A stretch of DNA of 64,000 nucleotides from Bacteroidia bacterium (GTDB taxonomy: Bacteria > Bacteroidota > Bacteroidia > Flavobacteriales > Flavobacteriaceae), in contig JAUIKY010000014.1 of assembly GCA_030430535.1 (NCBI GenBank), positions 1 through 64,000 of the forward strand, read 5' to 3'. A program made the position numbers and the translations under genes. The notes beneath the pieces were generated by a model. That model worked only from the letters and a program-made list of their open reading frames with translations, did not search any database and had not been told where the DNA came from. Positions 17,022-21,259 of this stretch are shown in pieces (within the stretch, counting starts at the first letter, position 1; the number at the start of each line of letters is the position of its first letter).

Positions 17022-17849
17022 TTAATCCCGCACGCTTACTTGGCTCTCTACTATATCATTTATGGGCACTATTATCTTTCCTTCTTTTGTTTTTAAGGTT
17101 ATTGAAACATTATTAATCGATTCCACTTCGCCTTTTATTTGTCCAAATTCAATGACTTGTCCTATTTCATAAGTTTTTCTGGCATAAAAGGTTTTTAACA
17201 GATCGGCCACAATTCTTTGGGCTCCAAAACCAAATGCCAACGCAAAGGCCAATAAAAAAGCAGCCAAAATCATGGTGACGTTGCTTGTAATAATTTCGGT
17301 ATCTACCCCTGCTTGGTTTAAAGCTGTTATGGAAACAAACAATAAAAGCAAGAAAAACACAATCTGACTTACAAATTTTGAACCCGATAGATCCATAGAT
17401 TCAAAAAATGATTTGATGGCTTTTTTAACAAAATTGGCCAACAGCAAACCAATGGTAAAAAGGATTAATGCCGAAAACAACTTGGGTAAATACCCCAGAA
17501 AATCCTGTATCTCGGCCGAAACCATAGTAAGGTTCAAAATATCGGTTACAACAATAAGTATCATGATATACATGATCCATTTTACAAACTGGGTGGTAAT
17601 TTTTATAACATCGAAATTGAGTTTTTTACCATCAAAAATTTCAATATCGTTTATTTTATCGTCCAGTTTATCGGCCTTGGCAAATTTTAATGCTTTTCTT
17701 ACTATACCAACCAAAAGTTTGGTTAACAACCAACCAATTATTATAATAGCTATAGCTCCCAAAATATTAGGAATAACTTTTGCTACCTCGGCCGTCATAG
17801 CCGACAGCGAAGCCATTACACTTTCGTTCCAAGCAGTAATTTTGTCCAT
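17022..17849 (-). CDS. MscS-family small membrane channel with multiple N-terminal helices
   Basis: 275 aa with about four membrane segments (about 22-50, 87-107, 120-145, 163-210), then a short MscS-like beta domain (ALAFGFGAQRIVADLLKTFYARKTYEIGQVIEFGQIKGEVESINN, split across about 205-250) and a C-terminus (KEGKIIVPINDIVESQVSV) without the large MscS alpha/beta domain. This is the TM-helix-repeat type of MscS relative. It is the third gene of an operon with an ECF-like sigma factor and a 57-aa protein, 20 bases after the latter. Confidence 0.83.
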   Translation of the reverse strand: MDKITAWNESVMASLSAMTAEVAKVIPNILGAIAIIIIGWLLTKLLVGIVRKALKFAKADKLDDKINDIEIFDGKKLNFDVIKITTQFVKWIMYIMILIVVTDILNLTMVSAEIQDFLGYLPKLFSALILFTIGLLLANFVKKAIKSFFESMDLSGSKFVSQIVFFLLLLFVSITALNQAGVDTEIITSNVTMILAAFLLAFALAFGFGAQRIVADLLKTFYARKTYEIGQVIEFGQIKGEVESINNVSITLKTKEGKIIVPINDIVESQVSVRD

Positions 17850-17869: not shown

Positions 17870-18043
17870 TTACTCTTTCCTTTTTTTTATGGTTTGTTCT
17901 ATAATTTTTGCTGGGTCTACAGAGAATAGTTTAGCTAGATCCATAAGCAATTTTGCCATGGCAATATCGCTCATAACCTTTGCTTTGAGTTCTTCTGGAA
18001 CTTCCTTAAGCGGCTGGTTTATGTGTTTAAACGGGTTTTCCAT
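17870..18043 (-). CDS. 57-aa protein translationally coupled to the sigma factor gene
   Basis: Read directly from the minus strand: ATG 18043-18041 and TAA 17872-17870. It begins MENPFKHINQPLKEVPEEL and ends EQTIKKRKE. The middle is an amphipathic helix (KVMSDIAMAKLLMDLAKLF). No signal or membrane segment. Its ATG shares one base with the TAA of the sigma gene (TAATG), so it is almost certainly translated by coupling to it. Family not recognised. Size and position allow a regulator of the sigma factor, but nothing proves it. Confidence 0.8.
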   Translation of the reverse strand: MENPFKHINQPLKEVPEELKAKVMSDIAMAKLLMDLAKLFSVDPAKIIEQTIKKRKE

Positions 18044-18618
18044 TAGTTAAACTTCTCATTATATACTTTCAACAACTTATCTTTTGCACGTTTAACACGC
18101 ATTTTCACTGCACTTTCTCCAATATCCAAAACACTCTCTAGTTCTTTTACGGAAAGGCTATCTTGGTATTTTAGCAACAATATCATTTTTTCGTCTGGAG
18201 AAATAAGCTCTAAGGCTTCCTTCAATCTATCCACCCGCATATTTATAAAACCATCATCGCCATCGTCGTCTTCCGATAGGTTTTCAATGTCTTTATAATC
18301 GACCGACTGTTTTTCAAACTTTTTGGCCGTATTTCTAGTTACATAATTAACACAATGGTTATACGTAAAAGCATATAGCCAAGTTGAAAATTTTGATTTC
18401 TCTTTGAAACTCCCCAATTTAACAAAGAGCTTCAAAAATACATCTTGAGCTAAATCTTTGGCTTCGTCTTCATCCTTTGAAAACCCGTAACATTTGTTAA
18501 ACACCAACCCAGCATATCTATCGTACAAAATTTCAAAAAGCAACGTGTTATTGGTTTTAACAATTGCCTTTACCAAATCTTCATCTGATAACTTATTAAT
18601 GTCGTTGAGGGTTTTCAA
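18043..18618 (-). CDS. sigma-70 family RNA polymerase sigma factor (ECF type)
   Basis: 191 aa. Region 2 is at about 24-95 (LYDRYAGLVFNKCYGF, DEAKDLAQDVFLKLFVKL, FSTWLYAFTYNHCVNYV). An acidic linker (ENLSEDDDGDDG) separates it from region 4 at about 135-185 (LSVKELESVLDIGESAVKMR), the helix-turn-helix that reads the -35 element. It directs RNA polymerase to a special promoter set, unknown here. No classical membrane anti-sigma gene follows; instead the 57-aa gene overlaps its stop and an MscS gene comes next. The 251 bases upstream (18619-18869) show no clear promoter. Confidence 0.9.
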   Translation of the reverse strand: MKTLNDINKLSDEDLVKAIVKTNNTLLFEILYDRYAGLVFNKCYGFSKDEDEAKDLAQDVFLKLFVKLGSFKEKSKFSTWLYAFTYNHCVNYVTRNTAKKFEKQSVDYKDIENLSEDDDGDDGFINMRVDRLKEALELISPDEKMILLLKYQDSLSVKELESVLDIGESAVKMRVKRAKDKLLKVYNEKFN

Positions 18619-18869
18619 TTTAGCTAATCGCCATTAGTTGTTTATTAACATTAAGACGCATTTATTTTTAAAAGGTCACAAAAAAAGTAACATAAAAATT
18701 CAATTTTATTTTATGTTTGAGTCCTAAAGGTTGCAAGCATTTGTAAATACTCTTAATCCATTTACTACTTCACACTTATTACAATAATACGCAAAAAACC
18801 AAACGCATAAACCATACTGTAAAATCGTCTAATTATTTTTATAAAACTAGTAGTTAAGGAATTTAATAT

Positions 18870-19862
18870 TTAACTCAGCAATGAATAACGTATCAGGAAT
18901 TTTCCGTTTTTAAGCCACCTGACCCAGCCTTTCCCAACAGCGTCAAAATTATCATTGACCAGCGCAACAAACATCCATTCACCCGAAATACGCAACGGCT
19001 TCATAAAACTGTGTGTGATATTTATTTTGCTTGCATGATCCATTGGCTTTAAATGTACGGAAAACGCGTTTGAATCCAAAAACTCAACGCTATGCACGGT
19101 CAAAAAAAACTCAGGCCAATATAAAATTCGTCCTTGATGCTTGTCAACATAAACCGTTTTATTGCTTAAAGTATTCACGACAACCTCAACAAGTTCTTGG
19201 GTTACAGATTGCACTTTAAAATATAGCAAACCGTAATCGAGTTTTAAATGGTCTGGCATTAGCCAAGGCGGTGCAGTAATTATTTTGTAGCCTCCGTATT
19301 CGGACTTTTTGAATGTGATGCTGTCTGTAGGACTATGTTCCATCAATGATTTTTCCAAATTGGGGCTTCCATAAAAATAAAGCACGTTATTTTCTGAAAA
19401 ATTTGGAGTAAACATACCTAAACCCAAGTCGCTTTCATTGGATTGAAAATCGGTTCTGTACAATTTCGCCATGGGTTCGGCCTCCGAAGAAATAGGTTTT
19501 GTCTGCTCTTCGTTTTTTGGAGTTTTGGGTTGCTCGATTTTTTGTTTTTCCAATGCCTTTGCCTTTTGTTTTTCTAAATACTTAACGTGAAAATAGGCCC
19601 AGAATCCAACGATTGAAATAGCCAATGCTATATTAATCTTAAAAACGACCTCACGTTCAAATTTATAGGCGACTAAAAGCGCAACCAAAAGCCCGACAAA
19701 AATCCCCACAACACCATAGCCCAAAACGATAGCACCACCGGCCAAACCTTGATTTTTTCCTGCACCAACTAACCCCGCATAACTCAAACCTACAAAAAAG
19801 CTAAAAACGAGCATTAAAAAGTAAAACAGAAAGCTGTACCCCTTTAACATTTTATGCGCCAT
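18870..19862 (-). CDS. membrane protein of unknown function, partner of the VWA protein
   Basis: 330 aa. Three N-terminal hydrophobic segments (about 10-33, 40-66, 75-92), then a Lys/Glu/Gln-rich linker (about 93-130) and a soluble domain of about 200 residues with many aromatic residues and beta-like stretches (DYGLLYFKVQSV, GRILYWPEFFLTVHSVEFL). I do not recognise the family. It starts 2 bases after the stop of the VWA gene, so the two are co-translated and probably work together at the envelope. Confidence 0.75.
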   Translation of the reverse strand: MAHKMLKGYSFLFYFLMLVFSFFVGLSYAGLVGAGKNQGLAGGAIVLGYGVVGIFVGLLVALLVAYKFEREVVFKINIALAISIVGFWAYFHVKYLEKQKAKALEKQKIEQPKTPKNEEQTKPISSEAEPMAKLYRTDFQSNESDLGLGMFTPNFSENNVLYFYGSPNLEKSLMEHSPTDSITFKKSEYGGYKIITAPPWLMPDHLKLDYGLLYFKVQSVTQELVEVVVNTLSNKTVYVDKHQGRILYWPEFFLTVHSVEFLDSNAFSVHLKPMDHASKINITHSFMKPLRISGEWMFVALVNDNFDAVGKGWVRWLKNGKFLIRYSLLS

Positions 19863-19864
19863 GA

Positions 19865-21259
19865 TTAAAAGTTTATGTTTTTAGTAAAGGTTTCCCCTTG
19901 CTTAATCTCCATGGTAAAGGTTTCACTTTTCCCTCGGAACCCCTCAGTCAAGACCTTCAGGGTCACCTCGTACACCCCGGGATTTAAAATAAATTCTTTA
20001 GGGTTGTTATTTGGCGATGTATAGGTGCGGCCACCCGTCACCCCTTTGTTAGCACTTTTTTCCTTGATATTTACCGTAGCATCAACCAAAGCACCTCCAC
20101 CCGAAGCACCAATTAAGGCAATACCACTTTTGAATTCGTGCTTGGCTTCAACCGTTTTTCCCGATTGCACTTCAACATCTTCTATTTTAAAAGTTGTATT
20201 AAGTCCTTTAATTCTAAGTGCCACCAACTCGATATCATAAACACCAGCATTCACTTCTATCATTTTTGGGCGACCATATGTACGGCTTCCGCCCACAACC
20301 TCGCCACTTTTCGTTATAATTTTACTAGTAGAATCCCAGCCTTCACCATTATTCAGGGTGATAATATTTATTTTTCCGCCATCAAAACTTACGGTTTCAT
20401 GCCCCATTTTACCTTCAACACTTTCAACGGTAAGCGAAGTACCTTTTATCCTGGTGTTTTCCAGAGGCTGGATTTGAAGGTCGTATTTACCGGGAGGCAA
20501 ATACAGAAACGAAGTGTCTCTGTACGTTCTGCCCGCATCAACTTCTTCTTTTGTGCCTTTTTTATAGGCTCTTACCCAAGCATCAACAGGTTGTTCGTTT
20601 TTGGTGGCATAAATTGAAAAATTCCCTTTTGGGTCATCAACCGTTTGAGAAGTGGCTTCGGTTAACACTTCTTGCAAACCGCTGGCATTGGCCGCATCAT
20701 GGTAACTCCCATCACCAGCATTTGCAGCACATTTTAGCTGCTCCTTTTCACCTTCTTTTAAACCAAACCCAACAATGTGCAATTTAAATTCAATGCCGTC
20801 TAATTTGGCTTTTGATACAACATCGCAAATATCGCCATCACAGGACTCAATACCATCGGTTATTAAAATGATAGTAGCCTTGGTTTTATTTTCTTTAAGT
20901 GAATTTATTGCGATTGTCGCCGACCGCGCCAAAGGTGTTTTTCCTAAAGAGTTTATTTCTTTAACCTCGTTTATTACATTGTCTTTTGATTTGTTTTTTA
21001 AATTAACGAGGTACTCAATATCATTACAATCCCCTTTTTTTCTATGCCCATAAACCAATAAACCTATGTTTTGATTTTCGGGAAGATTGCCAACAGTTTC
21101 CGCCAAAACATCGGCGGCAATTTCCTTTTTGGTTTTATCTTCCAACTTGCCCCACATAGAACCACTGGCATCATAAATAAACAAAATGGGAGAAACCTCC
21201 TGCGCATGAGGCTTCAAGAATAAACAAAAAACAACGAATAATAATGCTAACTTTTTCAC
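19865..21259 (-). CDS. secreted VWA-domain protein with three tandem RTY beta modules
   Basis: 464 aa with a GTG start at 21259 and a signal peptide (KKLALLFVVFCLFLKPHAQ). The VWA domain (about 25-200) has an intact metal site: DASGS (about 30-34), TPLARS, and ITDGIESCDGDIC. Two Cys in the last motif and one near ECAAN-like LKCAANAG suggest a disulfide, as in secreted VWA proteins. After it come three modules of about 80 residues, each with an RTY signature followed by a G(K/V)Y turn: AGRTYRDT...PPGKYD, GSRTYGRP...NAGVYD, GGRTYTSP...NPGVYE. Probably a periplasmic or surface binding protein. Co-transcribed with the membrane gene downstream. Confidence 0.85.
   Translation of the reverse strand: MKKLALLFVVFCLFLKPHAQEVSPILFIYDASGSMWGKLEDKTKKEIAADVLAETVGNLPENQNIGLLVYGHRKKGDCNDIEYLVNLKNKSKDNVINEVKEINSLGKTPLARSATIAINSLKENKTKATIILITDGIESCDGDICDVVSKAKLDGIEFKLHIVGFGLKEGEKEQLKCAANAGDGSYHDAANASGLQEVLTEATSQTVDDPKGNFSIYATKNEQPVDAWVRAYKKGTKEEVDAGRTYRDTSFLYLPPGKYDLQIQPLENTRIKGTSLTVESVEGKMGHETVSFDGGKINIITLNNGEGWDSTSKIITKSGEVVGGSRTYGRPKMIEVNAGVYDIELVALRIKGLNTTFKIEDVEVQSGKTVEAKHEFKSGIALIGASGGGALVDATVNIKEKSANKGVTGGRTYTSPNNNPKEFILNPGVYEVTLKVLTEGFRGKSETFTMEIKQGETFTKNINF

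Follow-up and report, generated by a model that had tools for sequence, protein, structure and literature searches.

A Conserved Sigma Factor, Small Soluble Protein and MscS-Family Channel Unit in Bacteroidota with a Predicted Autoregulatory Promoter

Gene Layout of the Locus

The window analysed here is the whole stretch of 64,000 nt at positions 1 to 64,000 of contig JAUIKY010000014.1, from a Bacteroidia bacterium of the Flavobacteriaceae (assembly GCA_030430535.1). On its minus strand lie three consecutive genes, coding for a SigX-like ECF sigma factor (18043..18618; 191 aa, TTG start), a 57-aa protein (17870..18043; ATG start) considered here as a soluble partner and putative anti-sigma factor, and an MscS-family channel (17022..17849; 275 aa). 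The ATG of the small ORF begins on the last base of the sigma TAA codon (TAATG), a start within the sigma stop codon that the initial annotation had pointed out and that is read directly at 18043; the two genes thus share 1 nt, and the MscS start lies 20 nt downstream of the small ORF. A predicted autoregulatory promoter (GTGACCTTTTAAAAATAAATGCGTCTTA; 18652..18679, minus strand), with the motif GTGACY-N14-GYGTCTWA, is located 33 nt before the sigma TTG. Upstream on the same strand are genes for a 330-aa protein (18870-19862), which has hydrophobic stretches near its N-terminus and matches no family above cut-off, and for a VWA-domain protein (19865-21259).

The sigma factor matches the Pfam domains Sigma70_r2 (2.5e-14) and Sigma70_r4_2 (6.8e-10). 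Its best NCBIfam model is SigX (NF007222, 1.6e-29), with a score of 102.8 bits that is below the cut-off of 194 and leaves the protein outside the SigX equivalog. Among the 21 matches of this model across the whole genome, the window sigma is nevertheless the top one (102 bits vs 62 for the next). The channel presents the MS_channel_1st_1 (PF05552, 2.2e-20) and MS_channel_2nd (PF00924 beta domain, 1.4e-8) domains, and its best matches among solved MscS chains range from 2e-11 to 5e-10. The C-terminal alpha/beta cage domain was not found, as there is no Pfam match after residue 271 and the alignment to the 286-position MscS model ends at position 167, as it does in solved MscS chains of 286 residues, the length of E. 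coli MscS. The window channel stops where its beta domain does. The relatives of the channel are 268-295 aa long (n=107).

A Family of Small Soluble Proteins

The 57-aa product had been described in the initial annotation as uncharacterised and devoid of membrane segments and zinc motifs, a description that holds for the window protein and for most of its relatives. It has no Pfam family (best E 0.029, below cut-off) and no NCBIfam match, its top 19-residue hydropathy is 1.13, indicating no membrane segment, and it contains one His and no Cys. Among 107 small-protein relatives, with ORFs of 56-85 aa, the HxxxCxxC zinc motif occurs in none and only six reach a hydropathy of 1.6. The family is recognised by the conserved pattern NPF...VPxxLKxKVMxDIAxAKLxMDxAxLF; in a 66-row alignment P16 is invariant and N3, P4, F5, V23, M24, D26, K31, L32 and L39 are conserved in at least 90% of the rows. 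The weak matches of its members appear to be chance ones, namely DnaG_cat_HB, CheC and others in Pfam (1-3 of 66 members, E 0.01-0.09), those in NCBIfam (just 1-2 of 66 members), and fibrinogen (E 0.62) and FliG (E 0.9) in a sequence search of the PDB. In three loci (L083, L106, L113) the small gene is tandemly duplicated after sigma, the first copy in L113 being a 46-aa short form.

A short ORF without a named family could be a chance ORF or an artefact of an overlapping frame, and the initial annotation had made its proposal depend on conservation of the frame and on purifying selection in relatives. Both were found: a single-sequence search matched the small protein in 97 of the 299 family genomes, that of the window among them, and pN/pS of the small gene has a median of 0.127 and a maximum of 0.453 in 44 locus pairs with sigma pS <0.5, which are non-independent. 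As the frame is conserved together with its start spacing, and overlaps the sigma gene by 1 nt only, the artefact explanation can be regarded as refuted. Its conservation shows that the ORF codes for a member of a genuine protein family, with no match in either Pfam or NCBIfam.

Conservation of the Gene Order

The initial annotation had proposed that the three genes form a unit and that their order be searched across Bacteroidota; the unit was recovered in many Flavobacteriaceae and in close relatives of the sigma factor elsewhere in the class. In the 299-genome search, 80 of 101 match rows were read as loci, and a collection of named genomes provided 40 loci with the small protein, including Wocania (Flavobacteriaceae), Algibacter, Winogradskyella, Maribacter and others. 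Every one of the first 70 loci showed sigma, small and MscS matches. When these were joined by 47 more distant family loci and the profile matches (127 in all) and 14 duplicates were removed, 113 distinct loci found via the small protein remained, of which 109 present the order sigma-small(-small)-MscS. The other four lack an adjacent MscS gene and still have sigma beside the small gene; in L077, L113 and L115 the small gene follows sigma, and in L109 it precedes it. Of the 112 loci with adjacent sigma, 42 have the small start at -1 relative to the sigma stop, 68 show an overlap of the small gene with sigma, and in 104 the start falls between -20 and +12. The gap between the small and MscS genes is 2-56 nt, once 86 nt, with MscS starts chosen by script. 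Two observations concern individual loci of this set. In the comparison of L003 with L015, pN is 0.03 for sigma, 0.21 for the small gene and 0.15 for MscS, a pattern that an exchange of the sigma gene would produce, and L017, L020, L060 and L062 carry a second related sigma gene downstream of MscS, with no small gene after it.

Beyond the family the unit becomes rare. In the samples of the order (246 genomes) and the phylum (345 genomes), the small-protein profile matched 10 and 12 genomes, respectively, which for the most part belong to the family. Outside the family only two loci of the same class (L127, L128) and one of the same phylum (L129) hold up, each with sigma-small-MscS; three further profile matches (L125, L126, L130; E 0.003-0.005), with no sigma nearby and lying in 680-aa, 44-aa and stop-broken frames, were dropped before counting. 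A search with the window sigma against 295 genomes of the class returned 23 matches in 18 genomes at E <=1e-30. In the 12 genomes from other families of the class with a sigma at E <=5e-40 (L158-L169), an ORF of 64-89 aa and then MscS follow in 12 of 12, a count that excludes the window and one family member and in which L159 and L162 are the genomes of L127 and L128. In one of these (L163) the ORF has diverged too far for the small-protein profile. The nine weaker sigma matches in the class (L170-L178) are not trailed by a small ORF and MscS. Since sigma relatives in other families of the class share the unit and matches are sparse, the unit is old but scattered.

The sigma factor also tends to be missing where the small gene is. 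It was absent at 1e-25 from all 30 genomes of a first set lacking a small-gene match, the same query finding sigmas elsewhere, and with G038 from 31 of the 32 such genomes in which it was sought. In the exception, a 1.9-Mb genome (G046), the sigma is diverged and broken by an in-frame stop; it lies near an lpdA-like gene (L321), and no small or MscS gene follows it. As to mobile elements, plasmids gave no MscS match at 1e-8, downstream of the sigma of the one Spirosoma plasmid examined neither a small nor an MscS gene is annotated, and 44 pattern matches in viral contigs included no relatives.

A Predicted Promoter Motif Shared by Carriers of the Unit

An unbiased count of spaced words upstream of sigma brought out GTGAC...GTGTCT far above shuffled sequences; a first promoter guess, G[AT]AAC or GT[AG]AC followed by CGTC, had been found in 0 and 3 of 112 loci. 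Of the 112 loci, 65 carry the pattern GTGAC-N13..20-G[TC]GTCT ahead of sigma, 60 of these 65 with a spacing of 15, against a chance expectation of 0.0 in 50 mononucleotide shuffles; it occurs in 82 of 2000 280-nt tiles from the same loci, upstream-of-sigma sites included. The strict motif is absent before sigma in the other 47 loci, mostly the more distant ones.

At the genome scale the motif follows the unit. The window genome has two exact GTGACYN14GYGTCTWA sites, that of the operon and another 32 nt before a gene for a LysM protein. Sites are present in 39 of 40 carrier genomes, drawn from the 51 strongest small-protein matches in the family, and amount to 181, with none for the backwards-pattern control; in the remaining carrier (G140) the operon copy reads GTGACG. 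Of 40 genomes without a small-gene match, several of them small, only G046 contains the motif (6 sites; backwards control 1). The difference in motif presence is highly significant (Fisher p 3e-20), these genomes being non-independent. Among the first 31 genomes scanned, eight have sites (29 in total vs 3 backwards), corresponding to the window's own, six with a small-protein match and G1084, where a site precedes sigma; no sites were found in the carrier G015, whose operon copy also reads GTGACG, nor in the remaining 22. Because each of the 40 carriers has one small-gene match, about one site per genome would be that of the operon, and most sites lie elsewhere. The conservation of the motif suggests that sigma probably transcribes its own operon from GTGACY-N14-GYGTCTWA, and the presence of this predicted promoter motif before the Bacteroidota unit is a new element here.

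The Predicted Regulon

Potential targets were surveyed at 140 distinct sites in the fetched loci, which are a part of all sites and exclude most of those of the operon. An ORF of at least 60 aa starts within 300 nt in 115 of the 140, and 25 have none. The largest groups are a LysM protein (15 sites), which belongs to the NF008399 equivalog (193.8 bits vs a cut-off of 134) and whose group includes E. coli YgaU (the potassium-binding Kbp), a DUF2853 gene (15 sites), the sigma gene itself (13 sites, most operon sites being outside the fetched set) and an M48 protease related to BepA/LoiP below their cut-offs (12 sites). A ruvX gene further down accounts for six sites, DUF3078 and an RpoD-like primary sigma (below the RpoD cut-offs) for five each, OmpA, DUF2807, dodecin and an unannotated 88-aa frame for four each, and MscS, aquaporin Z (AqpZ, 379.7 bits vs 256) and DUF937 for two each; smaller unannotated groups and singletons, including DUF1508, DUF4197 and DUF2059, complete the survey. 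Taken as a prediction from motif positions, the list fits a response to water, potassium and envelope stress. The ECF motif SM6 of Flavobacterium psychrophilum was compared and set aside, since with its CGT -10 box and T9SS targets it reads, in the portion of the source considered, as a different regulon (PMC9723704).

Structure Prediction and Co-Variation

Two read-through proteins allowed the small protein to be modelled with AlphaFold beside either neighbour. The sigma-small protein of L060 (133-row alignment) reached a mean pLDDT of 88.5 and a pTM of 0.63, with the small part predicted to consist of a short helix (at NPF), a stretch in extended conformation with pLDDT around 90, and one long helix. 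The small-MscS protein of L062 (89 rows) reached 88.1 and 0.61, the pTM being moderate in both cases. By 10-residue blocks, the confidence of the small part is 71/90/96/91/81/85 in the sigma context and 73/80/91/83/72/61 in that of MscS, two models that differ in alignment depth, in block register and in the end that carries the small protein. This contrast gives weak support to sigma as the predicted partner. In a fold search with the sigma-small model, nearly all matches fell on the sigma part, which resembles ECF factors solved with anti-sigma factors. Mean-field DCA on 107 triplets (effective number 69) placed among the top-L pairs 88 of 10773 sigma-small, 71 of 15675 small-MscS and 159 of 51975 sigma-MscS pairs; these counts exceed six shuffled pairings each for all three protein pairs, with shared ancestry still included and not separable.

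Relation to Known Sigma Factor Systems

The initial annotation had suggested that the three-gene unit could sense membrane tension and feed it to transcription. The idea of a mechanosensing sigma factor/small protein/channel system is already known in one genus, Pseudomonas. The available parts of the corresponding reports describe SigX, an ECF102 factor, as forming a mechanosensing complex with the channel CmpX and the small soluble CfrX, a putative anti-sigma (PMC8999054), and place CfrX, termed a proposed or putative anti-sigma, in this complex with OprF and CmpX (PMC8999054, PMC10418997). The passages concerned in PMC7641640 show cfrX-cmpX to be under SigX, support the hypothesis that CfrX and CmpX help to regulate it, and give cfrX a product of 84 aa with a putative function only. 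Both cfrX and cmpX are lowered in a sigX mutant, according to an excerpt of PMC3832394, and a section of PMC10965496 cites earlier work in which a cmpX mutant transcribed less sigX and states, from its own experiments, that overexpression of cmpX in P. aeruginosa left sigX and cfrX transcripts unchanged. The operon is summarised in part of PMC8032927.

The unit described here shares with SigX-CfrX-CmpX an ECF sigma with SigX as its best NCBIfam model, a small soluble protein and an adjacent MscS-family channel, the prediction, here from motif evidence, that the small and channel genes are under the sigma factor, and a link to OmpA-type proteins, with an OmpA-type gene among the predicted targets here and OprF in Pseudomonas. 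The arrangement is different, since cmaX-cfrX-cmpX lies upstream of sigX in Pseudomonas, with the cfrX promoter inside cmaX (as laid out in part of PMC7641640), whereas here sigma leads and its stop is overlapped by the small gene. CfrX is also longer (84 aa against 57 aa here), and size class and position are parallels only. The unit is best filed as a putative Bacteroidota variant of the SigX-CfrX-CmpX kind, set beside CfrX by parallel. In searches of an open-access library, no description of the sigma/MscS unit, the small-protein family, the promoter or the regulon was recognised for Bacteroidota from titles and abstracts.

Two other classes of anti-sigma factor are pertinent. NepR, the anti-sigma of EcfG in Alphaproteobacteria, is likewise a small, soluble, helical protein without zinc that is encoded beside an ECF sigma. 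A sigma-NepR complex (5uxx) is among the structures whose sigma chain matches the sigma part of the sigma-small model; unlike NepR, however, the unit includes an MscS gene, and none of 66 small-protein members matches NepR in Pfam (E up to 0.1). The genes of zinc or membrane-bound class I anti-sigmas (RsiW, RseA, ChrR) directly follow that of the ECF sigma, but the small proteins considered here differ from them in having no HxxxCxxC, mostly no membrane segment and ORFs of 56-85 aa.

A Model for the Unit and Its Alternatives

It is most likely that the small protein is a minimal soluble regulator of an autoregulated envelope/osmotic-stress sigma, and it is probably an anti-sigma factor. The full model, which we hold about evenly poised between right and wrong, is an autoregulated ECF module for envelope or osmotic stress with the 57-aa protein as anti-sigma and MscS as tension sensor, similar to SigX-CfrX-CmpX. 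Sigma would transcribe its own operon from the conserved motif, and the 57-aa protein, coupled to it in translation, would hold it in unstressed cells, with the conserved NPF-VP segment and the long helix lying against sigma. The cage-less MscS may then sense membrane tension and relieve the inhibition, directly or via ion flow, this being the least certain step. From the motif evidence, the freed sigma would induce its own operon and the genes of the Kbp-like LysM protein, AqpZ, MscS, the M48 protease, OmpA and other envelope proteins. The model draws on the order kept in 109 of 113 loci and in 12 of 12 relatives in the class, on the absence of sigma from 31 of 32 genomes without the small gene, on a motif that tracks carriers (39/40 vs 1/40), on the predicted targets, on the AlphaFold contrast, on sigma remaining beside the small gene in the four MscS-less loci, and on the Pseudomonas precedent as far as it is set out in parts of PMC8999054 and PMC7641640. 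It is weakened by the three loci that keep sigma-small without MscS, by the strict motif missing in 47 of 112 loci, by the scatter of the unit outside the family, by the 25 of 140 sites without an ORF, by co-variation counts in which partners and shared ancestry are not separated, by the differences between the two AlphaFold models and by the nil effect of cmpX overexpression mentioned in a passage of PMC10965496.

In a rival explanation, sigma and the small protein would be a switch of their own, with another signal freeing sigma and MscS serving merely as an output gene, a safety valve. That L077, L113 and L115 do without an adjoining MscS is in line with this, as are the motif sites before other MscS and AqpZ genes elsewhere and, in the part of PMC10965496 concerned, the unchanged sigX and cfrX transcripts upon cmpX overexpression. 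The adjacent MscS is nevertheless kept in 109 of 113 loci and in other families of the class, more tightly than any other predicted target, and it lacks the cage domain, so that the safety-valve explanation appears rather unlikely, even though we are less sure of MscS as sensor, rather than output, than of the anti-sigma role. The same adjacency in 109 of 113 loci could mean that the 57-aa protein serves MscS as a regulatory subunit and has no contact to sigma. This is quite improbable, because the small gene overlaps that of sigma in 68 of 112 loci, stays beside it in the four loci without MscS and is modelled by AlphaFold with higher confidence in the sigma context, with the differences between models noted above. 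Finally, co-occurrence and coupling are compatible with an inhibitor and equally with an obligate subunit, and the small protein might thus be an activator or chaperone that helps sigma to bind polymerase or promoter. Little probability is given to this proposal, since autoregulated ECF factors usually need a brake and since the relevant parts of PMC8999054 and PMC10418997 speak of its counterpart in Pseudomonas as a putative or proposed anti-sigma.

Under the preferred anti-sigma model, the unit bears on whether MscS channels signal to transcription factors beyond releasing solutes, a question raised for Pseudomonas SigX and of which the unit would be a compact, conserved form in a second phylum. 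The unit further hints at what an unnamed family of small proteins, carried by about a third of the sampled genomes of the window's family (97 of 299), may do. The exact motif and the predicted targets can be used as readouts, with which a possible effect of membrane tension on gene expression can be tested, and the protein is small enough for binding and structural work. A broader proposal, which we regard as doubtful, is that several Bacteroidota lineages possess a switch in which membrane tension felt by a cage-less MscS is relayed to minimal soluble anti-sigma factors of a new family (about 57 aa), with neither a transmembrane anti-sigma nor a proteolytic cascade, and thereby to a regulon for water, potassium and the envelope, to which a candidate small RNA and the gene of an RpoD-like primary sigma would belong in some genomes.

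Other Motif Sites

In five genomes (L240, L255, L259, L265, L285) the motif is found about 110 nt upstream of the RpoD-like primary sigma gene, a position that suggests that the ECF factor may feed into a housekeeping-type sigma gene. Downstream of eight sites with no convincing ORF (L216:1529-1590, L217, L221, L279:329-390, L294, L315, L189, L249) lie a conserved GCTATTA segment, a pair of G-rich and C-rich arms and a T-run, which together resemble a candidate sigma-dependent small RNA; Rfam gave no match in 10 loci with the candidate RNA or the operon. In another genome (G008, contig 7; L185:1501-2048), four copies of the motif lie within about 550 nt upstream of ruvX, with no clear ORF between them.
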